Positions 26,842 through 41,881 of a DNA stretch of 64,000 nucleotides are shown here, piece by piece. Positions within the stretch are counted from its first letter, which is position 1; each line of letters opens with the position of its first letter. Both the position numbers and the translations under genes were made by a program. Source of the stretch: Candidatus Latescibacterota bacterium (GTDB taxonomy: Bacteria > JAAXHH01). The DNA is taken from NCBI GenBank assembly GCA_012270975.1, contig JAAXHH010000129.1, forward strand, positions 62,001-126,000. Reading direction: 5' to 3'. A model generated the notes under the pieces. It was given only the letters and a program-made list of their open reading frames with translations, was not told the DNA's origin and ran no database searches.

Positions 26842-27093
26842 ATGAGAAGTGGCGATGAAATGTTGAGGCAGATTGTAGACAAGTCCGCCTTGGACGCAGA
26901 TTTCAGGCAGAAGCTACTCGCGGATCCGAAGTCGACCATTTGCGAAGAATTGGACATTACGATGCCTGAATCCATGTCGATCCAGGTCCATGAGAGCGAT
27001 ATGCAGACGGTACATATCGCGTTGCCCCCGGATCAGAACATCACCGAGGAGCAGCTCGAAGCCGTCTCAGCCGGTCTCTGCTGCTGCTGGTAG
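26842..27093 (+). CDS. RiPP precursor with NHLP-type leader and LCCCW core
   Basis: 83 residues. Residues about 18-78 match the nitrile hydratase-like leader (NHLP): 'FRQKLLADPKSTICEELDIT', then 'SIQVHESDMQTVHIALPP' and the helical 'ITEEQLEAVSAG'. Such leaders are cut by C39 peptidases after a Gly-Gly-like pair, here Ala77-Gly78, leaving only Leu-Cys-Cys-Cys-Trp. Cyclodehydratases of the YcaO family turn Cys into thiazoline, and the cluster also holds a Trp-halogenase-like enzyme, so both residue types in the core have a matching enzyme. It is the only plus-strand gene of the cluster, with its own promoter and terminator. The leader is also found, diverged, at the start of the protein at 33231. 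Confidence 0.85.
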   Translation: MRSGDEMLRQIVDKSALDADFRQKLLADPKSTICEELDITMPESMSIQVHESDMQTVHIALPPDQNITEEQLEAVSAGLCCCW

Positions 27094-27152
27094 ACCGGAA
27101 CAGAAACACCGGATAGCATGCGGATACCTGCATTCGCATGATTGTAAAATCG

Positions 27153-27190
27153 AAAATCCTCCCCGATCGCTCAGGTCGAGGAGGATTTTT
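27153..27190. terminator. Bidirectional terminator between precursor and convergent operon
   Basis: 'AAATCCTCC' pairs with 'GGAGGATTT' around a loop that can itself pair partly (CGA/TCG). A-run on one side and T-run on the other make it work for both the precursor and the opposing operon. Confidence 0.85.
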
Positions 27191-27233
27191 GCTTTGATTT
27201 CCTGACGTGGCGCTTAGTTCGAGAGCCTGTCGC

Positions 27234-28352
27234 TCAGTTCGAGAGCGCGCCGGAAAGCACCATGTAAAGATAGGCCTTGACCTTCTCCAGTCTGTTTGCG
27301 GAAATGACCAGCTTGATGTGATGTATACCCCGTAGCATGAGAAAGGGCCCGGTCTTTCCAAACAGCGTCGTGGGTTTCGAAGCCCAGCCAGCCAGCGCCT
27401 TGAGCTTCTCCCCTACGACGAAGTCCTCGTAGCTCAACGCTTCGAGTATGGGATCCCAATCGGTCATACCGTCGATCCAGTAACGTGAATCCTGGGTGTA
27501 TCTTTGCTTGACTATGGGCGTAAGACCGAGTGTTGGTCCCAGTCCGTCCGAACGTACGTCGATGTTCGCCCCGGTGCTCACGATATCCGCCCGTTCCCTG
27601 AAGCGTGTAAGCACAGATTCGACCGCCGAAACATGTCCCGGCCAACCGGTGTTTTCGAGAAACGAGCAGATCCCCTCCTGTGCGTTAAAGCCCATTATCG
27701 CAAGGCGGACCGTGCGTTCCCGGGACGGAAACACGCCGAAGGAGTCCAGGCGCGTGTCTTCCGGCTGCGCCAGGTACACCCGCTCGGCGTTTTTTCGTTC
27801 AGCGGCAATCCTCTTCCAGCCGACACAGGAAACGAGTGCGTCGACAACCCTTCCGACTTCATGCTGAAGACCGCCGCCGCCGAACAATGTGCGCTCATTG
27901 GGCCGCAGGAACATGCCCGGTATCGGGTTTGCGCTGCCCGGCGCCGAATCGATGTCATACTCCAGCATCAGTTTACGCCCCACGATTTCCCGCAGGGGTG
28001 AGTGCTGAACTTCCATTTCTCTGAACAGCCTGCTGACCGCACCTGCGGTCTCGTCCGTCTCGTCTGTTCGCGCCTTCTCTTCGTAATAATCGCCTGATCG
28101 GTTCCCACTTGCCAACGAGACGCCGAAATCCGCCACGGGCCGGCTGTCGTGCAGCGGCAGTTCGAAACCGAAGGGCTGGGCGCCCATGGTGATGGGTAGC
28201 TGCCTCGCGCGTTCAAGTATCAGCCCCCACTCCCGCTTTCCGATAAGCCTGGAAGAAATCCCACTTCGCAATTGCCCTAGCAGTTCGGCCATCGTGCCGC
28301 CCTCTTCGGCAAGACGATCCTGGGTGAGCAGGACGGCTTCGTCGATATTCAC
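27234..28352 (-). CDS. Unrecognised protein of the RiPP cluster
   Basis: 372 residues, GTG start at 28352 with an excellent 'GGAGGT' seven bases before it. It is the last gene of the tailoring operon, nine bases after the YcaO stop. No signal or membrane segment. Two halves can be seen: an N-terminal half with 'PFGFELPLHDSRPVADFGVS', and a C-terminal half with 'GWPGHVSAVESVL', a Gly-Leu-Gly stretch, 'SRYWIDGMTDWDPILEALS' and 'GIHHIKLVISANRLEKVKAY'. I do not recognise flavin (SagB nitroreductase), PLP or metal motifs. The C-terminal segment reminds me of uncharacterised proteins near other RiPP genes, but that is memory, not proof. It could modify the core or bind the leader. Confidence 0.6.
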   Translation of the reverse strand: MNIDEAVLLTQDRLAEEGGTMAELLGQLRSGISSRLIGKREWGLILERARQLPITMGAQPFGFELPLHDSRPVADFGVSLASGNRSGDYYEEKARTDETDETAGAVSRLFREMEVQHSPLREIVGRKLMLEYDIDSAPGSANPIPGMFLRPNERTLFGGGGLQHEVGRVVDALVSCVGWKRIAAERKNAERVYLAQPEDTRLDSFGVFPSRERTVRLAIMGFNAQEGICSFLENTGWPGHVSAVESVLTRFRERADIVSTGANIDVRSDGLGPTLGLTPIVKQRYTQDSRYWIDGMTDWDPILEALSYEDFVVGEKLKALAGWASKPTTLFGKTGPFLMLRGIHHIKLVISANRLEKVKAYLYMVLSGALSN

Positions 28353-28361
28353 CTTACCTCC

Positions 28362-30677
28362 TTACGCGATTACCGGCGCGGGATTCATGTCGAATTCGGC
28401 CAGGGAGTGCCTACGACGGCCCATGCCGACAGGCACGTCGTACAGGCGCCCCGGGGCGAATCTTGCCCAGAAATGGCGCATGCCCGGCACGATGACCCGC
28501 GCGACGGGCATGCCGATGTCCGGCCGGGTCTGGTCCAGCACGAGGAACTCCATGCCCCTGGCTTCGACCATCGCCCGGGAGTATTCCACGTCATCGCGCG
28601 AGTCCGTTTTTTCGATTTCAGGATATTGCGCACCTCGCTTAAGCGGCGCGTCGAGCGATGGCGCGAGCCAGGGACACTCGGCGATACGCGCGGTCTTCCA
28701 CCAGTCGAGCGCCATCGGATCGTCGATCATGGGCCGGCCGGACCGACCAGGCTGACCGCCGCCGGGACGCGGCAGCCAGGTCAGGCACTGGTTCAGTTCG
28801 CAAATAGCCCGCAGGGCCGCCAGTCGCGGGTCGGCATGGGCGCCGGCGCCGTATATGATGTCCTCGGTTTCCGCTTCCGGCCTGCGGGAGAGCGCAACGA
28901 ACGAAGGTATCTCTATATCGGACGTAACGTCGAGCATCCACAGTTCCCGCTCGCAGCGACCGTAGTAGTCCTCGGCCGAGGCAAGGAACTCGTCGTCGAA
29001 GCTGGAAAGATCGACCCCGGGCACGCTCAGTCCATTATACCACCAGATAGCGAATGCATCGCGTTCGACCAGTTCATAGAAACCCTGCAGGATGGCCTCC
29101 TCCAGGGTGTTCCCCGCGGCACAGCCGTTGGAATCGGCAATCAGGTCAGCAGGGCCACGCTGTTCGGGCGCCATGCTGTAGAGCATTGACGTCGGCAGAT
29201 ACCGGTGCCGCTCCTGCGTGAACGACCACACGGGGGTCCAGTCGATTTCGGTATCGGGATGAAGACGCGCCGGGACGATGTTGTATGGGTGCCCTTTCGC
29301 GTTGATACTTTCCGCGTTGTCAAGCTGATCGTCGCTGAACAACTGCACGTCGTTGGGGTGGATCGCCTCGTCTTCCGCGGCGAAATCGAAGAGTCGTCCG
29401 CGGGTACGGATTTCGTCTCCGCTAAAGGCGCCTGAATGACGTTCGATCGCCTCGCAGAGGGCACTGGCCTCGGACTGTTCCCGCGTACTGCCCTTGCCGG
29501 CGCTTTTGCTACGCAGGCTGCGCCTGAGCGAACTCAGGCTCCGGCTTCGCATACCGGGATTGCTTCCCGCCCAGTAGACGTGAAGCCAGGAATCGTTCTC
29601 ATCGGTGGTACGCGCCAGCCAGGATACGACACCGCTGACCGGGCTCACCAGGTGACGGTACTTCGCCAGGGTTGCTTCCGGCGTAACGGTCCGCGCACCG
29701 CCGCTGTTGCGATGGGGTTTGGGGCTCGCCTTAAGACTCAGCGGAATCGGCGACCTATCGGACCGATACAGCGCTTCGTCGCCGCATGCAGGACACTGCG
29801 GCCGTTGCAGGACCGTATGCTTCGAGCTGGCGTATGCGCCTCCTTGCATCGAGATCGCGTGGTCGTGGATCGGGGCCGCTTCATCCAGTACGAGCCACTT
29901 GACGATTTCAGCCGCGATCAGCCCGTATACCGCCTCGAGCACGGCGGGTTCGGCGGCGAACGGCTTGAAGGCGGCATCCTCGCCGGCGACGTGCCGAAGG
30001 AACTGGTGGACCTCCTTGTGGCCGCGTAGCCGGTTGGCCAGGCAGTCCCAGCAGGGGCCCTGCCTGTCCGCGCGAAAGACGGGTCCGAACAGCACTTCCA
30101 TGCCGCGTGGCCTCACCAGCGTCCACGGAACTCCAGCCTCGAGCTGGCGCCGGTTCACCTCTGCAAATCGCGCGTCGAGATAGTCGTCGCAGACGACAAC
30201 CTTGAGCCGGGCGTCATCGCGATTCGTTACGCCGGCGCCGCTCATCTTAAGGTACCTGATCAGCCGGCCATCGTCGCCATCGACCGCAACGCGTGATTCC
30301 GCCAGTCGCTGTTGGACCCATCGGGGCGATGCGCCGATCGACGTCCAGTAAGCCGCCCGGGATCGGTCCATGCCATGGTCGGCAGAGATGACATAGCCCC
30401 GGTCGGAGAGCGAAACGACCGCCGCATGCACGTCGGCGGCGGCATGGCGGCCCTCGAGGTCGGCGACGATCCCGTCCAGCGGACGCCGGCCGTCGAGGAG
30501 CGGCATCAGGTCGCAGTACACCTTGCCATGCAGCAGGGTATCAAAGGATTCGGAAACTAGGAGCGTCTGCTGCTCGCCGATGACGTGGGATCTCAGGTGC
30601 GGGGTAAGCGCGGGGAGATCGACGAGGTCCCGGTCGGCAGGAGTCGTTCTCGTCAGTTTGCCGCTGCGGGAATTCAT
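28362..30677 (-). CDS. Fused ThiF-like/YcaO azoline-forming cyclodehydratase
   Basis: 771 residues from the ATG at 30677 (ATG at 30695 is an alternative). Residues about 1-330 form the E1/ThiF-like leader-binding part with two zinc-type Cys pairs, 'GPCWDC' (209, 212) and 'CPAC' (295, 298). Residues about 335-771 are the YcaO domain; its ATP site shows as 'SALCEAIER' (405-413), 'SNGCAAG' (516-522) and 'ELVERD' (535-540). The family uses ATP to cyclise Cys, Ser or Thr side chains onto the backbone. The three adjacent Cys of the precursor core are the obvious targets. The extreme C-terminus 'MNPAPVIA' keeps only a trace of the Pro-rich PxPxP end seen in many YcaO enzymes. No separate azoline oxidase gene was found. 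Confidence 0.92.
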   Translation of the reverse strand: MNSRSGKLTRTTPADRDLVDLPALTPHLRSHVIGEQQTLLVSESFDTLLHGKVYCDLMPLLDGRRPLDGIVADLEGRHAAADVHAAVVSLSDRGYVISADHGMDRSRAAYWTSIGASPRWVQQRLAESRVAVDGDDGRLIRYLKMSGAGVTNRDDARLKVVVCDDYLDARFAEVNRRQLEAGVPWTLVRPRGMEVLFGPVFRADRQGPCWDCLANRLRGHKEVHQFLRHVAGEDAAFKPFAAEPAVLEAVYGLIAAEIVKWLVLDEAAPIHDHAISMQGGAYASSKHTVLQRPQCPACGDEALYRSDRSPIPLSLKASPKPHRNSGGARTVTPEATLAKYRHLVSPVSGVVSWLARTTDENDSWLHVYWAGSNPGMRSRSLSSLRRSLRSKSAGKGSTREQSEASALCEAIERHSGAFSGDEIRTRGRLFDFAAEDEAIHPNDVQLFSDDQLDNAESINAKGHPYNIVPARLHPDTEIDWTPVWSFTQERHRYLPTSMLYSMAPEQRGPADLIADSNGCAAGNTLEEAILQGFYELVERDAFAIWWYNGLSVPGVDLSSFDDEFLASAEDYYGRCERELWMLDVTSDIEIPSFVALSRRPEAETEDIIYGAGAHADPRLAALRAICELNQCLTWLPRPGGGQPGRSGRPMIDDPMALDWWKTARIAECPWLAPSLDAPLKRGAQYPEIEKTDSRDDVEYSRAMVEARGMEFLVLDQTRPDIGMPVARVIVPGMRHFWARFAPGRLYDVPVGMGRRRHSLAEFDMNPAPVIA

Positions 30678-30729
30678 GTTCGACCGCCCCGGCATCCGGC
30701 GTTTCCGCGTCTGCTCAGTGTGGATGCCT

Positions 30730-33138
30730 TCATGCGTGTGTAGCAAGCGTATCGATCCGAGAGGCGGCGCGGGATGCGGTTCCTTCGACCGCCGACACCA
30801 GCGTATCGAAATCCTCCTGCCCGCAGGCGCTCGCAACAAGGGATTTGACCTTCGCCCCCGCCGTCGCCGCGTCAAATCCGTCCTCTCCTACCAGCCGCAT
30901 AACCCCTTGCAGGTCACGCCACAGGTTCGCGGCCTGCGCCAGCGACTCGTCGCCGGAGGCTTCGAATACCGCCGCGGCGGACGGAGCCGGATCGTCGAGG
31001 TAGTCACCCGCATGCGTCAACTGCAGGAAGCGAGCGGCATGCACGACATCGTTCAGCCCGCCGCGCATGCGGGCGTATGCGGACACACTCGTCTCTGCGC
31101 CGTCTTCCGGCTGTTCGCCCGACTGGGTGAGAAACGACTCGTTCGCGCCGCATTCGGCCAGGATCCGGCGCCGCGCATCGTCGAAGCGGCTTCCGATGCC
31201 GGAACCCTCAGGCTCGAAGAGGCAACGGGCCCGGGTGAGGACGGAAACCCCGCCGGAGACCGGATCTCGGACTTGCTCGGCCAGTTCGGTAAGCGGCAAC
31301 GCGGGAATGGCATCTGCGCCGGCGGAGACCGGGGAGAACAACAGGTTGTCCTGTGCCAGGTCGGTCAGGGCCTTTTGGAAGCTCCGGCACAAACGCTCAT
31401 TTTCACGCGATCTCTCGCCGTCATGGACGAACAGCATGTCGATGGAAATGCCGGGATAGGCTTCCCGGCTGGCCAGGTCACCCAAGAAAACGGCGGCGAC
31501 CTCACCCACGCTGTCCGTGCCGTACCGCTCGCCGAAATCCGCGACCACGGAGGCAAGCACCGTCGAAATCGACGCTTCGGCAAGATTTGACAGCGCCGTC
31601 CTTGCTTCCGCCGGCAACAGGTTGCCGCGCACCACGTGCATACCGACCTGAAACGCCTTGTCGTTCGACCAGTTCCGCACGATTTCGGCCGTTTCCCTCG
31701 AATCGACCACGGGCAATTCGACGATCTGGTCTTTCATTTCCTGGACGCCCATTTCATAGGTCCAGTAGACCCGGGCAAGCCCACGCCGTGCGATCGACTC
31801 GAATTCCTCGTCCTGCTCGAACCCCTTCGGCAGATCGAGATCGAGAAACTCCTGTTCCTGCAGGTTATCCAGGAGTTCCGGGTTCCGTTCGATCCACTTC
31901 GCGAGCCGCGGCGCGGCGCCGAAGATTTCTACGATCGTGTCAAAGGCATCGGGTCGCTTCGCGGCGAGCGGACTGTCGTAGACGCTCCAGTCATCAATCT
32001 CCGGATAGAAATGCTTGCGCCACTGGTCCACCAGCGGGTCCATCTTTTCAAACCACTTCCTGGGCTTCAGCACGATGTTCATCATATCGGAATAGGTTCC
32101 CGGCAATTCCGGCGATTCGTCGAGACTGACCTGCAGCAGCGGATACTGGCGGGATGCCACCGCGTGGTGGTCGGCATGGCGCTGCGCATTGAAAAGCATC
32201 CAGTTGCTGAACTTCCAGTCGGCGCTCCACGAATGGCGGGGCATGATCTTTTCCCAGCGGCCGTTTTCCAGACGGACCCGGCGGAGGTCGTAGTGCTGGA
32301 AGTAGTTGCTGATCTTCATGGAAAACACGCAGGACAGGCCGAGGAAGGCGAAGACCGGGACCGCCCAGATCCCGCCCATCCAGAATACCAGCGCGTACCA
32401 GAACGCGACGCCGAAGCCGTAGCGCCAGAAAGGATTACTGTAATGCCACATGGTCCGGCGGCGGCGCGCCAGGCGTTCTCTCGCCACTTCCCAGGAATTG
32501 ACGAGGTTGCTGACGATTTCCTTGGGCATGTACCGCCAGAAACTCTCCCCCTTCGGAGCGGAGCCCACGTCATACGGCGTGCCGACCAGGGCATGATGGA
32601 TGTATACGTGCTCCGTGGCATACTGCGGATAGGAAGCGGAGGAGAGCAGGAACTCGCCGATCCGGCGTTCCCAGGTCGTGCGCCGGTGAATCAATTCGTG
32701 GCCGACGACGAACACGGCCTGCGCTTCCATCGTCAATATGATGGCCAGCACAACGTCCTGCCACCAGACGAACTGGTCCGCCACCAGGATCTGCCACAGG
32801 CCGAAAACCAGGGTGGGCGGCCAAAGAAACGCCCACGACCAGACCGGCAGATTATGCCAGATCAGTCGGTGCTTCGGCGTTTTCCACGGATCCATGATGC
32901 GTCCGTCGCGGCCGAACACCCGGTCGAAGGACCAGGAAAGACTCATGAAGACCATGGGCGGCAGAAGCCACCATCCGCCATACAACGCGGCGAGCAGGAT
33001 CAACGGGAAAACGCCCAGCGGCAGGTAATGGGGAAGGGCGGTCAGGATGGACGGCTCGATCTCCTGCGTCGCATCGGACTGGTCCGGCCTGGCGCCGTCG
33101 ATTTCAGCGCTGTCGATTTCAACGGGATTTTGTGACAT
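30730..33138 (-). CDS. AlkB-type di-iron oxygenase fused to a degenerate GlnE-like domain
   Basis: 802 residues from the ATG at 33138, which has 'GGAGGTG' upstream. Residues about 35-380 are an AlkB-like membrane di-iron domain: several helices and histidine boxes 'GHELIH' (146-151), 'EHVYIHH' (176-182), 'NYFQHYDLRR' (278-287) and 'QRHADHH' (319-325). Residues about 395-800 look like glutamine-synthetase adenylyltransferase: 'WIERNPELLDNL', 'FLGDLASREAYPGISIDMLF' over the GMGKLG...SDIDL site, and 'MRGGLNDVVHAARFLQLTHAG' over GGIRDIEF. The catalytic Lys-Leu-Gly and the first metal Asp are lost (SDID to ISID), so nucleotidyl transfer is doubtful. The oxygenase would hydroxylate or desaturate the peptide or a lipid part. 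Confidence 0.8.
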   Translation of the reverse strand: MSQNPVEIDSAEIDGARPDQSDATQEIEPSILTALPHYLPLGVFPLILLAALYGGWWLLPPMVFMSLSWSFDRVFGRDGRIMDPWKTPKHRLIWHNLPVWSWAFLWPPTLVFGLWQILVADQFVWWQDVVLAIILTMEAQAVFVVGHELIHRRTTWERRIGEFLLSSASYPQYATEHVYIHHALVGTPYDVGSAPKGESFWRYMPKEIVSNLVNSWEVARERLARRRRTMWHYSNPFWRYGFGVAFWYALVFWMGGIWAVPVFAFLGLSCVFSMKISNYFQHYDLRRVRLENGRWEKIMPRHSWSADWKFSNWMLFNAQRHADHHAVASRQYPLLQVSLDESPELPGTYSDMMNIVLKPRKWFEKMDPLVDQWRKHFYPEIDDWSVYDSPLAAKRPDAFDTIVEIFGAAPRLAKWIERNPELLDNLQEQEFLDLDLPKGFEQDEEFESIARRGLARVYWTYEMGVQEMKDQIVELPVVDSRETAEIVRNWSNDKAFQVGMHVVRGNLLPAEARTALSNLAEASISTVLASVVADFGERYGTDSVGEVAAVFLGDLASREAYPGISIDMLFVHDGERSRENERLCRSFQKALTDLAQDNLLFSPVSAGADAIPALPLTELAEQVRDPVSGGVSVLTRARCLFEPEGSGIGSRFDDARRRILAECGANESFLTQSGEQPEDGAETSVSAYARMRGGLNDVVHAARFLQLTHAGDYLDDPAPSAAAVFEASGDESLAQAANLWRDLQGVMRLVGEDGFDAATAGAKVKSLVASACGQEDFDTLVSAVEGTASRAASRIDTLATHA

Positions 33139-33230
33139 GGCTACACCTCCTTGGTCAGCATAACCTGGCACCTGCGCGGGCGTTTTCTTGTCACCGGACG
33201 CCCTGAACCGAATACCCGGAACCGCTAGCC

Positions 33231-34532
33231 TCAGGTTCGCAGGACGGCGGCCAGACGCTCGAGCGCTTCGATGCAGAACGCGGTGGTCACGGCTTCGGAG
33301 CCATGGCCTATTTGTCCGACCGCGCCGAACTTCAGCGTCTGGTCGCCAAAGGCGAGCAGTTCCGGCCAGCTGCCGTCCTCGCGCTGCGAACTCAAGATGC
33401 TCCTCAACTGGCCCGGCGCGTCGATGCGCTCGAGGCGTCCGGCGTCGCAGAGCGCCGATACGGCCTGGGCGGTCTGCAGGACGTTGCCGAAACTGCCTTG
33501 CTCGTCCATCAAGCCCAGGACACGATCCGCAAGGACCGGGCGCAGCCGATCCAGGGCGGGGCTCACGCGTCTCACGGCACGGGCGACGGCATAGCAGATC
33601 GCGATCTCGTCGGGGTACCACTTGGACGCGTCCTTGAGATTGCCTTCGGCGATCAGTTCCTCCAGCCATCGCTGGGCGTCCCTGGTTTCGGGGCAGTCGC
33701 CGAGCCAGGCGATGACGTTCGCATTGACCACGGGGTCGGCTTCGATGCGAAAACGCGACACGACATCGGGTTCGTCGCCCTCCAGCATCCAGGTCATGAA
33801 ACGGCCTTCCCCGTCGCGGTTCGCCAGTATCCGCGGTATGTTCCTCCCCAGGAGAATCCAGGGGTGCGTACCAATCACCAGGGAACATAGCGTGGTGCTG
33901 TCGAGATCCTGGGGCAGATGGCGGTAGTAGCGCCAGAATCCGGGATATTCGATGGTATCAGCAAGATACGCCTTAGTCGCGGCGCAGATGGATCTGGCCT
34001 TCGCTTCCTGGCAACTTTCCAGGGCAAGGACGCAAAACGCCGAAATGAAGGGAGGCCTTTCGAAATGCCGCGGTACCTTCGGGTCGGCCACGTTGAACCG
34101 GATGCAGTGCCAGGCGCCGTGCTCGTCAATCGTCGACTCCAGGAAATCGAGACCACGGCGGATGCTTTCCCTGCTCGCTTCCGCAAGGACCTCGGCGCCG
34201 GCATCGCTACCTGGGACGCATTCCGCCCCGTCACCCGGCGGACGAAGGGGCGGCGCGGGATCGTACATGGTCTTGCGCAGAAACGCGAGGGACGACGCGC
34301 CGGTTCGCGCCTCCTCCCGTTCCTCCCTGGTGTATCGGCTGCGCGGGGGCAGGACGATATGGGTTGCGGCGGCGGTATCTTCGTGTACTTGTATCTCGTG
34401 GTCTGCCGCCATCGTCACGCCGAGTTCCTGCTCGATGGTCTCTTTGGGCCTGGCAAGGAGACGTGTCCGCAAGTCGTCGTCGTCGCCTGCTCTCAAGATA
34501 AGTAAATCGGCCGCGGTGGGGGACTTCTTCAT
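33231..34532 (-). CDS. NHLP leader fused to a terpene-cyclase-like toroid domain
   Basis: 433 residues from the ATG at 34532 ('CGGAG' upstream). Residues 18-78 align without gaps to the leader of the precursor at 26842; by eye 27 of 60 positions agree, including 'LLA.PK.TI', 'EIQVHE' against 'SIQVHE' and the 'LPP' turn. After a Pro-rich linker (91-115) comes an alpha-toroid domain of the squalene-cyclase/prenyltransferase type: 'RGLDFLESTIDEHGAW', 'SILSSQREDGSWPELL' (QW-like) and 'GHGSEAVTTAFCIEALERL'. 'DLDST' at 209-213 resembles a class-II cyclase DxDD motif with the last Asp replaced. It may be guided to the leader-binding enzymes or exporter through its leader copy; its reaction is unknown. 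Confidence 0.8.
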   Translation of the reverse strand: MKKSPTAADLLILRAGDDDDLRTRLLARPKETIEQELGVTMAADHEIQVHEDTAAATHIVLPPRSRYTREEREEARTGASSLAFLRKTMYDPAPPLRPPGDGAECVPGSDAGAEVLAEASRESIRRGLDFLESTIDEHGAWHCIRFNVADPKVPRHFERPPFISAFCVLALESCQEAKARSICAATKAYLADTIEYPGFWRYYRHLPQDLDSTTLCSLVIGTHPWILLGRNIPRILANRDGEGRFMTWMLEGDEPDVVSRFRIEADPVVNANVIAWLGDCPETRDAQRWLEELIAEGNLKDASKWYPDEIAICYAVARAVRRVSPALDRLRPVLADRVLGLMDEQGSFGNVLQTAQAVSALCDAGRLERIDAPGQLRSILSSQREDGSWPELLAFGDQTLKFGAVGQIGHGSEAVTTAFCIEALERLAAVLRT

Positions 34533-34645
34533 GAACGTCTGCTCCGTTCTCACGGGTCTCGTCCGAACGTGTGGCTCTAGCGGCTTGGCGGCGATCTGTC
34601 CGCTGCACATCAACCCGCCGCAGCTCCGCCCGCCGTCCACCCGGA

Positions 34646-37597
34646 TCAGGCGATTTGCCGCCTGATCAGTTCCTTGAATACCCCGTCGGCCTCCTTCAGT
34701 TCGTTGAAAGAGCCGCTTTGGACGACCTTGCCGGCTTTCAGCACGTAGATGCGGTCGGCCTGCTCGAGCGTGGACAGGCGATGGGCGATGACGAGGCGGG
34801 TGGAAGTCAGGGCGGCCAGGTTCCGCATCACGCTGGCCTGGTTCTCGTTGTCCAGCCAATTTGTCGCCTCGTCGAACAACATGATACGCGGGCTGCCGAT
34901 CACCGAGCGGGCGATCGTGATGCGCTGGCTTTCGCCGCCCGACAGGACGGAGCCGCTGGTGCCCACCATGGTCATCATGCCCATGGGCATGGCCTTGATC
35001 TGGTCCTCGACCTCCGCGGTCCGGACCGCCTCCCATACTTCATCGGTCGACACGCCTTCATAGTGGCTGACGAGGTTGTCCCAGAGATCCTGTGGATGGA
35101 GCCCGACCGACTGGGGCACCGCGCCGATCTTCCGGCGCACCTGTTTCAGATTCAGGTGCCTCAGGTCGCGTCCGTCGTAATACACCGCCCCGGCCGTCGG
35201 CCAGTCGATGCCTAGCGCGAGCCGGAACAGGGTGCTCTTACCGGCGCCGGACTCCCCGGCAATCGCGACGAATTCGCCGGGATGGGCGCGAATCGTGACG
35301 TCGTCGAGGATCAGCGGTCCGTCGGCGTCGTAGCGGAAGGAAACATGGTCGAACAGGATGTCCCCGCCCAGGTATTCGACCGGTTCGCCTTCCGATCCCG
35401 TTTCGGGCGCCGCCGAAAGCAGCGGACGCATCTGCTCGAAGGCCGGCAGCATGGAGGCCAGTGCGCCGATGGACTCGCCGAGTCGGGCGATGGTGGACTG
35501 AAACACGATGAAGACCGTGTAGACGACGAGAAAATCGCCGACCGGCATGGCGCGCTCTCCCGCCTCCATCACCGTGAAAAGGAGCACGCCGGCGGCAAGG
35601 AATGGCAGCGCGGCGCCAAATGCCCGAGAATGTCCCTCCAGTGCGCCCAGTTCGATCTCCGCACGCTTCTGCGCGCGATAGTCCCTCGCCCAGATGGCGT
35701 AGGCCGATCCTTCCGCGTTGTCCATGCGCAGTTTGGAAATGCCTCCCACGATCTGGAAGAGCCGGCCGGCCACGCGTCGGGCCGCCCTGATCATCCACCC
35801 GTAGGGAGAAATCTGGCGCAATCCCAGCACCAGGGTGACCAGCAGGGAAGCCAGGCTGAAGAGGAGCGTGACGACCCCGAGGGTGGCGTCGTAGAAGAAA
35901 ATGACGCCGAAAACCGGAAGCAGAAAGACCAACGAAAGGAAACAGTTGGCGACGACACCCCGCAATCCATCGCGGAGCTGCTGAAAGGTCATGCCCGACA
36001 TGGCCAGGTCGCCGGCCGGATTGCGGTGCAGCATAGCGGGAGGCAGGCGCATGAGACGGTCCCAGAAAGCGGCTTCGACCCGGGAGGCCGAACGCCCCTC
36101 CAGCCGCATCATCGCCATGTTCTGGAGGAGGTGCAGCATCGCGCCGAGCAGGCCGAAGGCCGCAATCGCCACGGCGACCGCGTATAGCATTCCCGCGCTT
36201 CCGCCTGCCGTGATGTGGTTCGCGACGAACCCGAGGGCGAGCGCAGGCAGTAGCCGGATCATGCCGTATGGAAGCCCGGCGATCACCATCCGCGCCCAGT
36301 CCGAGGTCGAGCCACGCAGGGCGATACCTAGCAGGTCCGACGGTTTCACGCCCCTCGCCGGCAGGGGCTGATAGAACATCCAGGCCTCTTCCGCCAACGC
36401 GTCCGTTCCGGCCAGGCGGGCCGCCGAGACCCGTGTGCGGCGATTGCTGGCCGGGTCGATCTGCCGGTACCGTCCGAACATGCCCGGCAGCAGCGCCACG
36501 GGCCGCCCGTCGTCGGCGCGATAGGCCAGCAGCGCGTTGCTGTCGCCGTGCCACCAGCGGTCTTCGGCGTTGAAACGCACGCGACGGGCGCGCACGCCCG
36601 ATGCGTCAAGAATGTCCACGAGGCCGACGGGCGCTTCGGACTGACCCGATCGCGCCGGGATCTTGAAATCGATGCCTTCATGACGGCCGATCAGGTGCAG
36701 GGCATCCGCCAGTGCCGTATCCTCGACACCGGCGTCCCGGTCGATCGGAAGGTCGTAGATATTGTAGAGCCGCTGCCGTGCGGTTTTCTCGGCCGTTCTG
36801 CGGCTAGCCGTTCGTGCCCGTTCGAGATTGACGGCATCGACCACGACCAGCCGGCGGTTCAGGCGCTCCAGGGTGAATGCGACCACGTGGAACGAGGCGA
36901 GTGCCGGCAGCAGTCGGCCCTGCCGGGCCAGAGTTTCCGTCGACTGGCCGGTCAGAGTCGCCTCGTCGACCAGGGTAAGCCAGCTTGTCCGGGACAGCGG
37001 GATGACCGTCTCGTGGGGGCTGCCCGTCTCCGCAAGTTCCGCGGAGTCGACGATCCCCATGAACAGGCCCGCGCCGGACGGCGGTTCGGAGACCCACACC
37101 ACGCCGCGCCGGACGGACAGCGTACACGGCGCCAGGGTCTGCGTCAGTCCCGGTTCGGCCAGCGCGGTCGGACGGGGAGGAGGGACGGCGAAACGCGCCA
37201 GCGTCTCCGTAATGGCGGTCAGCCACGTATCGGTCTGTTCCGCCAGTTCCGCCGGATCCACCCGGGACAGCAGGGAAACCGGCAGGCGTTTGAGCAGGGT
37301 GCCCGGCAGTCCCCTGGCAATGATACTGAGCGTGGTGTCGGTTTCACTGCCCACCCGGTGCGGCGCGACCCCCGGCAGCAGCCAGCCCGATTCCCGGCGC
37401 AGCAGGTGCTGCGGCGCCGACTGCTCCGTCCCGCTTTTGAGTTCGACCAGGAACAGATTGACGACGCCCTGGTCGATGAACCAGACGCTGTCCGGGTCGT
37501 CGAGGTTGACGGGCAGGTTGCCCGCACAGGGCACGGATTCACCGAAGCGATCGGCGAGTTCGGCCAGTGTAGAGTATTTCGGTTCGTTGGGTTGCAT
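34646..37597 (-). CDS. NHLM-type bacteriocin export ABC transporter, permease/ATPase
   Basis: 983 residues; the ATG overlaps the stop of the upstream peptidase-ABC gene by one base (TGATG). An N-terminal domain of about 400 residues without membrane segments is characteristic of the second ABC protein of NHLM systems. Membrane helices follow at about 420-690. The ATPase has Walker A 'GESGAGKST', signature 'LSGGESQR' and Walker B 'RIMLFDEATNWLD', in which Asn follows Thr where other exporters have Ser. No C39 domain. It should pair with the peptidase-ABC to export the mature peptide. Confidence 0.92.
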   Translation of the reverse strand: MQPNEPKYSTLAELADRFGESVPCAGNLPVNLDDPDSVWFIDQGVVNLFLVELKSGTEQSAPQHLLRRESGWLLPGVAPHRVGSETDTTLSIIARGLPGTLLKRLPVSLLSRVDPAELAEQTDTWLTAITETLARFAVPPPRPTALAEPGLTQTLAPCTLSVRRGVVWVSEPPSGAGLFMGIVDSAELAETGSPHETVIPLSRTSWLTLVDEATLTGQSTETLARQGRLLPALASFHVVAFTLERLNRRLVVVDAVNLERARTASRRTAEKTARQRLYNIYDLPIDRDAGVEDTALADALHLIGRHEGIDFKIPARSGQSEAPVGLVDILDASGVRARRVRFNAEDRWWHGDSNALLAYRADDGRPVALLPGMFGRYRQIDPASNRRTRVSAARLAGTDALAEEAWMFYQPLPARGVKPSDLLGIALRGSTSDWARMVIAGLPYGMIRLLPALALGFVANHITAGGSAGMLYAVAVAIAAFGLLGAMLHLLQNMAMMRLEGRSASRVEAAFWDRLMRLPPAMLHRNPAGDLAMSGMTFQQLRDGLRGVVANCFLSLVFLLPVFGVIFFYDATLGVVTLLFSLASLLVTLVLGLRQISPYGWMIRAARRVAGRLFQIVGGISKLRMDNAEGSAYAIWARDYRAQKRAEIELGALEGHSRAFGAALPFLAAGVLLFTVMEAGERAMPVGDFLVVYTVFIVFQSTIARLGESIGALASMLPAFEQMRPLLSAAPETGSEGEPVEYLGGDILFDHVSFRYDADGPLILDDVTIRAHPGEFVAIAGESGAGKSTLFRLALGIDWPTAGAVYYDGRDLRHLNLKQVRRKIGAVPQSVGLHPQDLWDNLVSHYEGVSTDEVWEAVRTAEVEDQIKAMPMGMMTMVGTSGSVLSGGESQRITIARSVIGSPRIMLFDEATNWLDNENQASVMRNLAALTSTRLVIAHRLSTLEQADRIYVLKAGKVVQSGSFNELKEADGVFKELIRRQIA

Positions 37598-39807
37598 CAG
37601 TTCGACCTGACCAGTTTGTAGTAGGCGCCGTCCCGGTCGTCGATCAGTTCGTCGTGCGTGCCCCGCTGCACCGTAACGCCTTCGTCCAGCACGATGATCT
37701 CGTCGCAGTCCCGCACGGTACTCAGGCGGTGCGCCACGATCAGGCAGGTGACTCCTCGCCGCCGCAGTGCATCGTCGACGTATTCCTCTGTGGCTGCATC
37801 GAGGGCACTGGTGGCCTCGTCCAGAATGAGCACCGTGGGGTTGCCCACAAGCGCGCGGGCGATTTCCAGCCGTTGGCGTTGGCCGCCGCTGAAGTTCGAC
37901 CCGCCTTCTTCGACGAGCGTCGCATAGCCCTGGGGCCTGAGCAGGACTTCTTCGTGAATCTGGGCATCGCGCGTCGCTGCGAAGAGGACTTCGTCCGGGA
38001 TGGCCGGATTCCACAGCGTGATATTGTCCCGCAAGGTCGCGGAAAAGAGCACGATCTCCTGGTCCACCATGGAGATGGACTGCCGAAGCACTTCCTCGGG
38101 GATCTGATCCCGAAGATGGTCGTCAAACATGATCTCGCCCGACCAGGGCTGATAGACCCCGGAGACCAGCCGCGCGAGGGTCGATTTGCCGGAACCGCTG
38201 GGACCGACCACGGCAATCCGCTGACCCGGCTTGATCACGAGGCTGAAGTCCTTGATCAGGGGCGGGCGGCTCCGGTTGTACCCGAAGGTGACGTCGCGCA
38301 GTTCCAGCTGGCCGGCGAGCTGGAGCCGGCCGTTGAACGTGTGGATCGCGTCCGATTCCGGGTTTCTGCGGCGAAAGACCGGATCCTCATCGGTTTTGGA
38401 AATGTCCTCGAGCCGCTGCAGATCGGTTTCGAGGGCCTGGCGGTTTTCGGCGAACTCCAGGAAGCGCTCGACGGGGGCCAGGAACATCTCCGCCAGGATA
38501 TAGAATCCCACCAGCATGCCCAGCGACATTTCTCCCTGCATGACCATCATGCCGCCGATGCCCAGGATCGCCGCACTGCGCAGCGCGTCGACCAGCCCCG
38601 GCAGGGAGGCGTTGACGGAGCCCAGTTCGGAGTATAATTGCCGTGCGCGCAACTCTCGGGCCTGTTGCCCGCTCCATCGCGAGAAAAAACGGTCATCCGC
38701 ACCCGTCATGCGCAGATTGTCGGCATGGCTCAGCATCTGCATGCCCAGACCGATCAGCAATCCCTGCTCGCGTCGCATCGTCTGGCTGCGTACCGCCCGG
38801 AGATTGTTGAGAAAACGGGCCAGCACCGCGTGCAGCAGCGCCAGCACGAGGACGATCAACGTAAGGATGGTGTCGAAGGCGAACATCGCAATGAGGAACA
38901 CCGCGCTCATGGCCATGTCGATAACGAGCACCAGGAACTGGTCCGCCAGGTTTTTAGCGATTCGATCGGTGGACGACACCCGGTCCGTAACGTCGCCGGC
39001 CAGCCTGTTTTCAAAGAACTCCACCGGCAGACGCAGAAGCCGTGACATCCCGTTGCTGTAGCCAGCTACCGATACCCGGACTGCGAGCCGCTTGAGGAAC
39101 CGGTGCTTGAGCAGGGACAGGACATAAACCAGGACGCCTCCACCCAGCAGGGCGGTGACCAATCCGCCCCAGGTCCCGTGCTTGGCCATGACGTCGTCGA
39201 CGAAGACGCCGAGCGACGCGGGAACGACCAGGGTCAACAGCGTCAGCATGAGTCCGCAGGCCACCACGCCGGTCAGCAGGCGCCAGGATCCCGCGATCAG
39301 GCCGTTCAGCTGCCTGAACAGGTCGGGCTGCTCGCCGCCGGGCGTGAAGTTCTCGCCGCGCTTGAAGCGTAGCGCAATGCCGCTGTAGCCCTTCTCGAAC
39401 TCTTCGGCGGAGATTCTGCGCCTTCCCGTGGAAGGGTCGTTGAGGTAGTAGAAACGGCTGTCGATTCCTTCGAGGACGAGGAAATGGCTGAACTGCCAGA
39501 ACAGCACCAGCGGAAACTCCAGCATTTTCAACTGATCGGCGCGCACGCTGAGGCCGTTGCACTCGAGACCGTAATGCCGGGAGGCACGCAGGATGCTCGC
39601 GGCACTGCTGCCGTCCCGGCTCACCTCGCATTTTTCCCTCAACTCGGCGAGCGGCACCCATCTTCCGAAGTATCCCAGTACGATGCCGAGACAGGCCGCA
39701 CCGCACTCCGATGCGTGCATCTGCAGCAGAACGGGCGTGGATATCCGCTTTGCCGAATCGTCCGCAGCGTTCTTGTTGCCGGCTTGTTTGGTCGTGCTCG
39801 CCGTCAT
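37597..39807 (-). CDS. NHLM-type ABC transporter with C39 leader peptidase
   Basis: 736 residues. The N-terminal C39 peptidase shows Gln29 and catalytic Cys35 in 'LLQMHASECGAACL', His108 in 'FSHFLVLEG' and Asp124 in 'YLNDPSTG'. A six-helix transmembrane domain (about 165-430) and an ATPase with 'VGPSGSGKSTL', 'NFSGGQRQR' and 'VLILDEATSALD' follow. It cuts NHLP leaders after the Gly-Gly-like site while exporting the core across the inner membrane. The predicted site in the precursor is Ala77-Gly78. The gene starts seven bases after the adaptor stop, with 'GAGGTG' before the ATG. Confidence 0.95.
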   Translation of the reverse strand: MTASTTKQAGNKNAADDSAKRISTPVLLQMHASECGAACLGIVLGYFGRWVPLAELREKCEVSRDGSSAASILRASRHYGLECNGLSVRADQLKMLEFPLVLFWQFSHFLVLEGIDSRFYYLNDPSTGRRRISAEEFEKGYSGIALRFKRGENFTPGGEQPDLFRQLNGLIAGSWRLLTGVVACGLMLTLLTLVVPASLGVFVDDVMAKHGTWGGLVTALLGGGVLVYVLSLLKHRFLKRLAVRVSVAGYSNGMSRLLRLPVEFFENRLAGDVTDRVSSTDRIAKNLADQFLVLVIDMAMSAVFLIAMFAFDTILTLIVLVLALLHAVLARFLNNLRAVRSQTMRREQGLLIGLGMQMLSHADNLRMTGADDRFFSRWSGQQARELRARQLYSELGSVNASLPGLVDALRSAAILGIGGMMVMQGEMSLGMLVGFYILAEMFLAPVERFLEFAENRQALETDLQRLEDISKTDEDPVFRRRNPESDAIHTFNGRLQLAGQLELRDVTFGYNRSRPPLIKDFSLVIKPGQRIAVVGPSGSGKSTLARLVSGVYQPWSGEIMFDDHLRDQIPEEVLRQSISMVDQEIVLFSATLRDNITLWNPAIPDEVLFAATRDAQIHEEVLLRPQGYATLVEEGGSNFSGGQRQRLEIARALVGNPTVLILDEATSALDAATEEYVDDALRRRGVTCLIVAHRLSTVRDCDEIIVLDEGVTVQRGTHDELIDDRDGAYYKLVRSN

Positions 39808-39814
39808 CCTGCGG

Positions 39815-40372
39815 TCACCTCATGAGGAACAGCCCGATCGGAGACTGCCGGCCAAGCTCGATGACGATCCGGCATTTCATGCCCGCAAGGGAATCCGGAT
39901 CCCGGTCTTCCGGAAATGCGGTCTCGAGCGCTATATCGATGCGGTGAACGGATACCGGCGCCGCGGTTTCAAAGGCGGCCGGTCCACCTGAGACGGGTTC
40001 GGCGGCGATGGCCCTGACCGTTCCGCCGGGCACGTCTGTTTCTCCATCCGCCGACTCCGGCTCGATCAATACCGGCATCCCGGCCGAGATATCCGGCGCG
40101 ATTGCGCTATTGATCCAGGCGAGAGCCTCCACTGAGCTGTTGCCATCGGGAAGGGGTTCCCCCTGCGCCACGATGACGCCGTCCACCACGATACTGCGCG
40201 CCACGCTGCCGAAGAACAGCCACGCCAGGAGGACACACAGAAAAACAGCGATCGCGGCGACCAGCAGCCGTTCCCGCGGCGTGGATATCGTCAGAAGCCG
40301 GTCGAGTTGCTCGCGGTCTTCCTTCGCCTCCGCGACGGTGTCATGAAATGAGTTTAGCAGATTGTTGAACAC
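39815..40372 (-). CDS. Short HlyD-like secretion adaptor of the NHLM system
   Basis: 185 residues, GTG start at 40372. One membrane segment at about 38-56 ('LLVAAIAVFLCVLLAWLFFG') and a beta-rich periplasmic part with 'VVDGVIVAQGEPLP', 'AGMPVLIEPES' and a C-terminal 'LAGMKCRIVIELGRQSPIGLFLM'. That is the lipoyl/beta-barrel framework of NHLM HlyD proteins, but the long coiled-coil hairpin that usually reaches toward an outer-membrane channel is absent, so it is much shorter than usual. Position ahead of the two ABC genes, seven bases apart, supports the call. It heads the export-tailoring operon behind the promoter at 40478-40506. Confidence 0.75.
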   Translation of the reverse strand: MFNNLLNSFHDTVAEAKEDREQLDRLLTISTPRERLLVAAIAVFLCVLLAWLFFGSVARSIVVDGVIVAQGEPLPDGNSSVEALAWINSAIAPDISAGMPVLIEPESADGETDVPGGTVRAIAAEPVSGGPAAFETAAPVSVHRIDIALETAFPEDRDPDSLAGMKCRIVIELGRQSPIGLFLMR

Positions 40373-40477
40373 GGGCTTTTAATGGTCTCCTCATGGCAGT
40401 CAAGCAGGTCTGCGCGCTCACGGGTCGAGCGGGTTTGCGCGCTCGCGAAAGGTAATTTCAGCCAGTATGATGCATAT

Positions 40478-40506
40478 ATTATGAAGTTTTATATGTTTCA
40501 AATCAA
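40478..40506 (-). promoter_or_regulatory. Probable promoter of the export/tailoring operon
   Basis: On the minus strand 'TTGATT' (40501-40506), 17 bases, then 'CATAAT' (40478-40483), in a short AT-rich island between the halogenase stop and the adaptor GTG. An alternative 'TTGAAA'-17-'TATATG' overlaps it. Confidence 0.55.
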
Positions 40507-40600
40507 GAAATGTCACCTTGCGGACGTCACGGCGGGCCGTTGCGCGGTGGCAAAGTATAAGCCTTCGATCCGCGTCGAGGTTGCCCTGTACCGGCGCCTG

Positions 40601-41881
40601 TCAGCCGGTCCAGCCCAGTTCCTGGGACATCTGGGCGTAACTGGTGAGCGGCACCGCGCACATCCGGTCCCAGTCGGCTTTGTCGATGACCGGCCGGTTC
40701 AGCAGTTCGAGCATCCCGTCGAATTTGCCGAGTGCATCGCAATCCACCGCATCGGGATCCATGGCCATGCGGTGCCGGGGCCAGACTCGTTCTCGCGCGT
40801 GACGCCAGAATGGGCTGTCGTAAATCGAACCGCAGGCATAGTGCCAGCCGACGAACAGGCCGTAGCAAAGCATGTTGTTGATGAGAAACCGGTTGACCGC
40901 GGGAGCGTCGCGCTCGAGATGCGCAGCCGGCCGGTTGAGGCGCGTGTGGAGCACCATCCCGACCTGCAGTTGGGCGGATACGATCGCCGTCGCCTCGAGG
41001 GGCTCCATGAAGGCCGCCGCGTTGCCGATGCGGGCCACGACGCCGTCGTAGATCCGGCGATGGACGAAGTTCGGAAACGGGATGACGGCCCTTTGCTCGA
41101 ATTCGGCCACGCCGTCGGCTTCCAGGAACGCGTCAAAGTCCGATTCGACTTCCGCGAGGTCGGAAACGTCGCGGTTGAAGATGTACCCGTAGGAGGTGTG
41201 CACCGTCAGCGGAATGACGAATATCCACCCGTGCGGACGGGCCACCGCCCGGGTGTAGGTATGTTGCAGTACCAGTCCGTCCTTCCCACCGTCGATGACC
41301 GCCGGGCAGCGCCGGATGACGGCGGTATTCGTTGGGATGAAGGAAATGTCGATGTGCTGTTCGGGGTGAAGTTCCTTCGGAAACCCGCGGGCGTCGAAGA
41401 CCAGGTCGTAGCGTTCCGGCGCCCGGTCCTCGAATTCCACCTGCGCGCCTTCCTCCAACCTGGTGATGTCGAGCACCTTCGCGTCGATATGGTGTGCGCG
41501 CGTGCCTTCGCGCAGCAGGTCCGCCATCAGGTCGGCGGACAGGTGGTAGGCGTACGACACCTGCTGCGGGGTAAAGTAGTGGGTGAAATCACGGTCGCGC
41601 CGGCCCCACCCCTCGAAGGCGACCCCATACTTGCGCGTTCCCTTCAAGCGCTGCTGGACGGTCTCATGGGGCAGTCCCGTCAGCTTCTGCAGCTCCTGCA
41701 CCAGGCTCGGCCAGCTGCCTTCTCCCACGCCGATGACCGGAATGCGCGAGTCATAGATGTGGTGCAACTCGTGATCGCCGTCGGGGTGAAGACGCGTTAC
41801 GCTGGCAGCCGCCAGGGACCCCGCGGTTCCCTGGCCGATAACGGCGATCTTCCGTAGAGATTCGGCGCCAGGTTGTATCAT
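40601..41881 (-). CDS. Tryptophan-halogenase-like flavoprotein
   Basis: 426 residues. Flavin-dependent halogenase features: the dinucleotide start 'IAVIGQGTAGS' (Gly16, 18, 21), 'IPVIGVGEGSWPSL', a Lys84 in 'TRKYGVAFEGW' at the place of the catalytic lysine, 'GWIFVIPL' (218-225) for the WxWxIP motif with Phe replacing the second Trp, and 'FMEPLEATAI' with Glu296 at the active-site glutamate. The family uses reduced flavin from a separate reductase to chlorinate or brominate indole. The precursor core ends with Trp, a natural target. The protein is shorter than PrnA or RebH (about 530). No flavin reductase gene is nearby. Confidence 0.85.
   Translation of the reverse strand: MIQPGAESLRKIAVIGQGTAGSLAAASVTRLHPDGDHELHHIYDSRIPVIGVGEGSWPSLVQELQKLTGLPHETVQQRLKGTRKYGVAFEGWGRRDRDFTHYFTPQQVSYAYHLSADLMADLLREGTRAHHIDAKVLDITRLEEGAQVEFEDRAPERYDLVFDARGFPKELHPEQHIDISFIPTNTAVIRRCPAVIDGGKDGLVLQHTYTRAVARPHGWIFVIPLTVHTSYGYIFNRDVSDLAEVESDFDAFLEADGVAEFEQRAVIPFPNFVHRRIYDGVVARIGNAAAFMEPLEATAIVSAQLQVGMVLHTRLNRPAAHLERDAPAVNRFLINNMLCYGLFVGWHYACGSIYDSPFWRHARERVWPRHRMAMDPDAVDCDALGKFDGMLELLNRPVIDKADWDRMCAVPLTSYAQMSQELGWTG

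Follow-up and report, generated by a model that had tools for sequence, protein, structure and literature searches.

The stretch of DNA considered here (the window) is 64,000 nucleotides long and comes from a Candidatus Latescibacterota bacterium (contig JAAXHH010000129.1) whose genome comprises 4.06 Mb in 160 contigs. Between positions 26842 and 41881 it holds nine open reading frames (ORFs) that, judged by the precursor core and the gene set as described in print, form a proteusin cluster of the srp type, which would encode a ribosomally synthesized and post-translationally modified peptide (RiPP). A single precursor gene on the plus strand faces eight minus-strand genes for enzymes and export (Table 1), an arrangement over about 15 kb that had been read from the letters alone in an earlier annotation (the original prediction) and of which all nine ORFs were found. 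The longest ORF was trimmed for four genes, which probably begin downstream of the longest-ORF start; the proposed starts (30677, 33138, 34532, and 37597) were chosen by eye, and AGGAGG-like sites lie upstream of some, not all, of the nine starts. Pfam and NCBIfam models name parts of the YcaO, AlkB-like, GlnE-like, NHLM ABC1, NHLM ABC2, short HlyD-like, and Trp halogenase proteins.

Table 1. Features of the srp-type cluster, in window coordinates
Feature	Position	Strand	Basis
NHLP (proteusin) precursor, SrpE-type, 83 aa, tail SAG/LCCCW	26842..27093	+	TIGR03793, PDB match, core
Predicted core LCCCW, with three prospective thiazoline Cys and a C-terminal Trp	27076..27090	+	Sequence
372-aa protein, predicted aromatic prenyltransferase (indole type) of ABBA fold	27234..28352	-	Predicted fold
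YcaO cyclodehydratase, N-terminal leader-binding region, SrpC-type	28362..30677	-	PF02624, TIGR03604, TIGR03882; start proposed
AlkB-type membrane diiron oxygenase fused to degenerate GlnE-like domain	30730..33138	-	PDB matches, His motifs; start proposed
NHLP leader-like domain joined to a toroid of the class II terpene cyclase type, 433 aa	33231..34532	-	Predicted model; start proposed
NHLM ABC2 exporter subunit (permease/ATPase)	34646..37597	-	TIGR03797 best match; start proposed
NHLM ABC1 exporter with C39 peptidase	37597..39807	-	TIGR03796, PF03412
Short HlyD-like secretion protein, 185 aa	39815..40372	-	TIGR03794, partial
Flavin-dependent halogenase, SrpI-type	40601..41881	-	PF04820, nearest PDB chains

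The NHLP precursor, YcaO enzyme, halogenase, and NHLM export of the original prediction are all borne out by family models. The precursor leader scores 60.9 bits with TIGR03793, above the cut-off of 50.9, and the best match of the precursor in the Protein Data Bank (PDB) is the NHLP chimera 8tb1 (E 6.5e-10), while the YcaO protein reaches 305.8 bits with PF02624 and also matches TIGR03604 and the leader-binding TIGR03882. The halogenase belongs by sequence to the Trp halogenase superfamily (PF04820, 152.4 bits versus a cut-off of 21), and in the PDB it lies closest to Trp halogenases (best E 1.6e-25). The canonical subgroup of flavin halogenases carries the motif WxWxIP, which was not found in the 42 halogenase relatives longer than 400 aa, all of which have WxFxIP instead, so that the enzyme is placed in the superfamily and not in that subgroup. 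Among the export proteins, ABC1 lies above the TIGR03796 cut-off (862 versus 853.3 bits) and matches PF03412, with a C39 peptidase that would presumably cleave the leader behind its AG; ABC2 has TIGR03797 as its best match, below the cut-off (651.2 versus 709.4 bits), and the HlyD-like protein matches TIGR03794 only in part (30.7 bits, far below 156.2). The last is less than half the length of the 421-position family model, and 68 relatives were extracted, with 185-187 aa among the 12 lengths listed.

The combination of an LCCCW-core NHLP precursor with a YcaO enzyme and a Trp halogenase in one cluster, distributed over several phyla by record title, is that of the srp clusters, which occur in many bacterial taxa and whose accessible descriptions give SrpE as a precursor with the core LCCCW and report assays of the YcaO enzyme SrpC, which makes thiazolines, and of the brominase SrpI, which acts on the C-terminal Trp (PMC10858898, PMC10286304). 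SrpC expressed with SrpE in E. coli is described there as performing poorly and yielding partly modified mixtures, and a chimera of the MprE leader with LCCCW is the tractable substrate (PMC10286304). The available text of another paper counts the srp clusters of sponge microbiomes among the azoline RiPPs (PMC9426513). No difference was found in the features compared, the likeness being one of published description, as far as accessible, and not of protein identity. The original view that the enzyme set matches no characterised family was therefore wrong, and its proposal of an NHLP/YcaO/halogenase RiPP cluster, likely to yield a halogenated thiazoline peptide, stands. The srp study of 2021 (Nguyen et al.) is said to describe the natural product as cryptic, and srp clusters are reportedly common in microbe-rich sponges. 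The related bins presumably come from sponges, to go by their sample codes (the record titles name no host), and the bacterium carrying the window is probably a sponge symbiont.

Relatives were collected by a YcaO scan of titled genomes, the best 80 of 172 being retained as loci L035-L114; a gene was scored as present in a locus on a tblastn match of more than 60 residues that exceeded an identity threshold fixed for each gene (35-50%), and misses include contig ends. The tail is LCCCW in 64 of the 80 loci and LCCCGW in one; seven tails lack Trp, and in eight loci the precursor was not readable, so that 64 of the 72 precursors that could be read share the LCCCW core. Many relatives repeat one order (precursor, 372-aa gene, YcaO, AlkB-GlnE, fusion, ABC2, ABC1, HlyD), with the halogenase, and in some also AlkB, located elsewhere than the main gene run. 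The precursor and the operon are thus conserved together, the point on which the original prediction had staked its reading, and the gene set is no chance juxtaposition. Motif counts were made over loci L022-L114 on 42 of 44 extracted halogenases, 74 of 76 AlkB proteins, 77 GlnE-like domains, and 74 fusions (>400 aa), and leader-residue counts over the same loci on 82 precursors of >50% identity, one per locus, plus the 74 fusions. Five loci (L035, L036, L038, L095, and L114) are, to judge by length, the same contigs as those in genomes of the window's genus (G003, G001, G006, G008, and G004, respectively), and these genomes enter twice into the motif and leader-residue counts and into the tail survey of other NHLP loci, and once into the 64 of 72.

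The YcaO relatives are titled by their submitters as metagenome-assembled genomes (MAGs) of Latescibacterota, Gemmatimonadetes, Acidobacteria, Nitrospirota, Nitrospinota, Binatia, Alphaproteobacteria, and Gammaproteobacteria. Some of these labels are probably wrong, since L035 and L095, titled Gemmatimonadetes, are placed in the window's genus, where three other members are titled Latescibacterota; the YcaO tree, which omits L104 and bears the submitters' phylum labels, is no proof of transfer. Within the window's phylum the profile of the 372-aa protein matches 11 of 16 genomes, all 11 belonging to the window's genus of 12, and in a sample of 369 genomes from the class to which G097 belongs it matches two, one of them G097. 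The fusion gene occurs in 12/12 genomes of the genus (the window's own and 11 others) and in none of the four genomes that its family and order hold outside the genus. This search used the over-long 601-aa ORF as its query and matched 13 of 96 genomes, including G092, which was discounted, its short match lying in the spurious upstream stretch of that ORF.

Two proteins would extend the cluster beyond the activities assayed for srp. The 372-aa protein, which the original prediction had left without assignment, matches no Pfam or NCBIfam model, and none of 41 members of its family matches the prenyltransferase models in Pfam. Its predicted structure is an ABBA barrel that spans the whole chain, with Trp and indole enzymes prominent among the nearest structures, and five invariant residues of the family (E64, R216, H345, K347, and Y361) sit in strands predicted by the model. 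The protein is accordingly filed as an ABBA-fold protein only and predicted to be an aromatic prenyltransferase.

The second is the fusion protein, of which the original prediction had called one part a leader and the other a cyclase: the leader-type fusion is real, and the cyclase can now be specified as a terpene-cyclase-type toroid. Pfam and NCBIfam matches lie only below cut-off, the N-terminus is of the NHLP type, and the predicted fold of the remainder is near SHC, MstE, and drimenol synthase, which suggests that the partner of the NHLP domain is a class II terpene cyclase. This fold is shared by MstE and drimenol synthase (PDB 6sbc, 9mhs), the former solved with farnesyl- and geranylgeranyl-dihydroxybenzoate and the latter with farnesyl diphosphate (FPP); the window protein differs from them in its leader fusion and in having DLDS where class II terpene cyclases carry the acid motif DxDD, two of whose three Asp are retained. 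That a protein beginning with an NHLP domain might serve not as an enzyme but as a substrate, exported or a decoy, is barely credible, as the docking Leu of its leader is replaced by Arg in 73 of 74 fusions and by Lys in the other, 67 of the 74 have Ala for the core-side Leu at AG/L, the cyclase fold is kept, and DLDS is retained in all 74.

The AlkB-GlnE protein was recognised correctly in its first half and less so in its second. Two alkane monooxygenases are the PDB matches of the N-terminal half (8f6t, E 2.7e-44; 8sbb, E 1.7e-34), and the His motifs of AlkB diiron monooxygenases are present in 74, 74, 73, and 74 of 74 relatives, with NYxQHY replacing the usual NYxEHY (0/74). The catalytic DxD of GlnE adenylyltransferases is retained in only one of 77 GlnE-like domains, and this half is, on its motifs, a degenerate GlnE-like domain only. 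The AlkB-type enzyme may oxidise the isoprenoid or the peptide. A different role, in which the AlkB half oxidises thiazolines to thiazoles in place of a missing flavin azoline oxidase, would accord with the finding that none of the window's nine genes matches a McbC/ThcOx-like family in Pfam or NCBIfam and with the assignment by Pfam of the AlkB half to the fatty-acid desaturases; it is decidedly improbable, given that G096 (L140/L141) has both an AlkB gene and a ThcOx-like nitroreductase near its cluster and that AlkB is not in the locus in 10 of the 64 LCCCW loci. The nitroreductase of G096 (L140:5851-7311) stands near an LCCCGW cluster, as if thiazolines were oxidised there.

Taken together, the cluster probably yields an exported bromo-tris-thiazoline pentapeptide that bears a terpenoid made through the prenyltransferase, cyclase, and AlkB. 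The YcaO enzyme, resembling SrpC, would form three thiazolines in the LCCCW core and the halogenase, resembling SrpI, would brominate the C-terminal Trp; the ABBA-fold enzyme would, before the leader is removed, add an isoprenoid for which the Trp indole is the likeliest acceptor, and the NHLP-fused cyclase would protonate and cyclise the chain, its altered leader domain holding it in the complex and not acting as a substrate. The AlkB-type enzyme might then oxidise chain or peptide, and the C39-ABC exporter would cut AG/L and release the product. The fully specified version, a RiPP-meroterpenoid with 6-bromo-Trp whose indole isoprenoid is folded by the leader-fused class II cyclase before oxidation by AlkB, has about an even chance of being right. 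What is new here is the prediction that srp peptides are terpenylated, since no prenyltransferase/cyclase reading of srp clusters was found in the open-licence literature searched.

There are precedents. According to the accessible account, the NctPC/ChrPC prenyltransferase-cyclases (PMC13290415) act on Trp with an ABBA prenyltransferase (NctPC) and a MstE-like cyclase; there the two enzymes are fused together, whereas in the window they are distinct proteins, of which the cyclase carries an NHLP leader domain. The mpp cluster of Moorena producens (PMC11791876) is a RiPP cluster with a Trp brominase, a prenyltransferase, a terpene synthase, and an oxygenase, but it is a lanthipeptide (LanM) system with a Nif11-type leader and arginases, and its accessible description does not mention azolines. 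If the prediction is true, prenylation and terpene cyclisation shift the mass to search for and might explain the lack of a plain brominated peptide in the literature searched, and a leader domain on a tailoring enzyme would be a neat way to keep a cyclase in a RiPP complex. For bromo-tris-thiazoline LCCCW the calculated [M+H]+ (79Br) is 651.088 when unprenylated (m/z 651.09/653.09 as the Br isotope pair) and 719.150, 787.213, 855.275, and 923.338 with a C5, C10, C15, and C20 chain, respectively, with a further 15.995 for the oxidised version of any prenylated form.

Several observations weigh against this interpretation. Foldseek TM-scores of the 372-aa model are moderate (TMq 0.37-0.55), and its family profile found no ABBA enzyme by sequence in a PDB profile search; the cyclase model has weak stretches at residues 51-90, 258-260, and 400-405, and besides the substitution of DLDS for DxDD, D211 is only a putative counterpart of the catalytic acid. 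L047, a Trp locus with long flanks, is without a cyclase, and the LCCCGW cluster of G096 has a cyclase with no close halogenase in the genome. Finally, Trp is missing from the core in seven related loci (LSCCL, LSCCV, LSCCM, LCCCGF, and LCCCGI), and all seven keep the prenyltransferase, so that Trp cannot be the sole acceptor family-wide. AlkB is found in five of these loci, the other two being 4.7-kb contigs, and no cyclase or halogenase was found in any of the seven, those two short contigs included. In whole-genome searches of the six genomes concerned, halogenase matches were absent from two and distant in the others (26-37% identity), and the fusion was matched only within its first 127 positions. 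The pattern fits a cyclase and a halogenase that both depend on Trp and a prenyltransferase without a strict need of it; the Fisher test on this association ignores relatedness, and a control based on the YcaO tree leaves one or two independent contrasts, too few for a test.

The persistence of the prenyltransferase in these loci bears on two alternatives. Prenylation could occur at a feature common to all cores, such as the C-terminal carboxylate or a Cys/thiazoline, with the cyclase working on that chain, and RiPP prenyltransferases are not tied to Trp, prenylation of Ser, Thr, and Tyr being expected in cyanobactins according to the accessible literature. This seems somewhat unlikely in view of the Trp in all five tails at the three further NHLP loci where prenyltransferases of this family occur, of the Trp and indole enzymes near the model, and of the absence of the cyclase where Trp is absent, few though the independent events are. 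It is unlikely, too, that cyclodehydration and bromination are the only changes made to the peptide, the prenyltransferase- and cyclase-like proteins serving a separate small molecule or a scaffold. Activities have been published only for SrpC and SrpI in the literature searched, as far as accessible, and six of the seven Trp-less cores have no aromatic residue (one has Phe), both of which would suit such a product; the genes are nevertheless conserved beside the precursor across MAGs titled as several phyla, the cyclase is joined to a precursor-type leader domain, and prenyltransferases linked to NHLP and Nif11 leaders are described, in the accessible texts, as acting on peptide Trp. We therefore retain terpenylation, most likely at Trp, as the preferred reading.

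Other loci hold related genes in different company. In G001, a member of the window's genus, an NHLP locus (L034:33-12052) has three precursors, each with Trp in its tail, together with a 26%-identical relative of the prenyltransferase, an FAD-linked oxidase, and ABC exporters. In G097 a second NHLP gene with the tail DYAWDC (L139:847-14872) lies near a halogenase, a JmjC protein, and NHLM-type exporters, followed further along by RND efflux genes and then by an adjacent diverged prenyltransferase and leaderless class II cyclase. The close halogenase matches in G104, the genome of L109, are only two short pieces (C1:1077842-1078318) beside an LCCCW cluster, as if the gene were decaying, and extra NHLP genes with the tails WCCCGN and MCCCGI stand next to the LCCCW clusters of L065 (near 17523) and L109 (near 17287), respectively.
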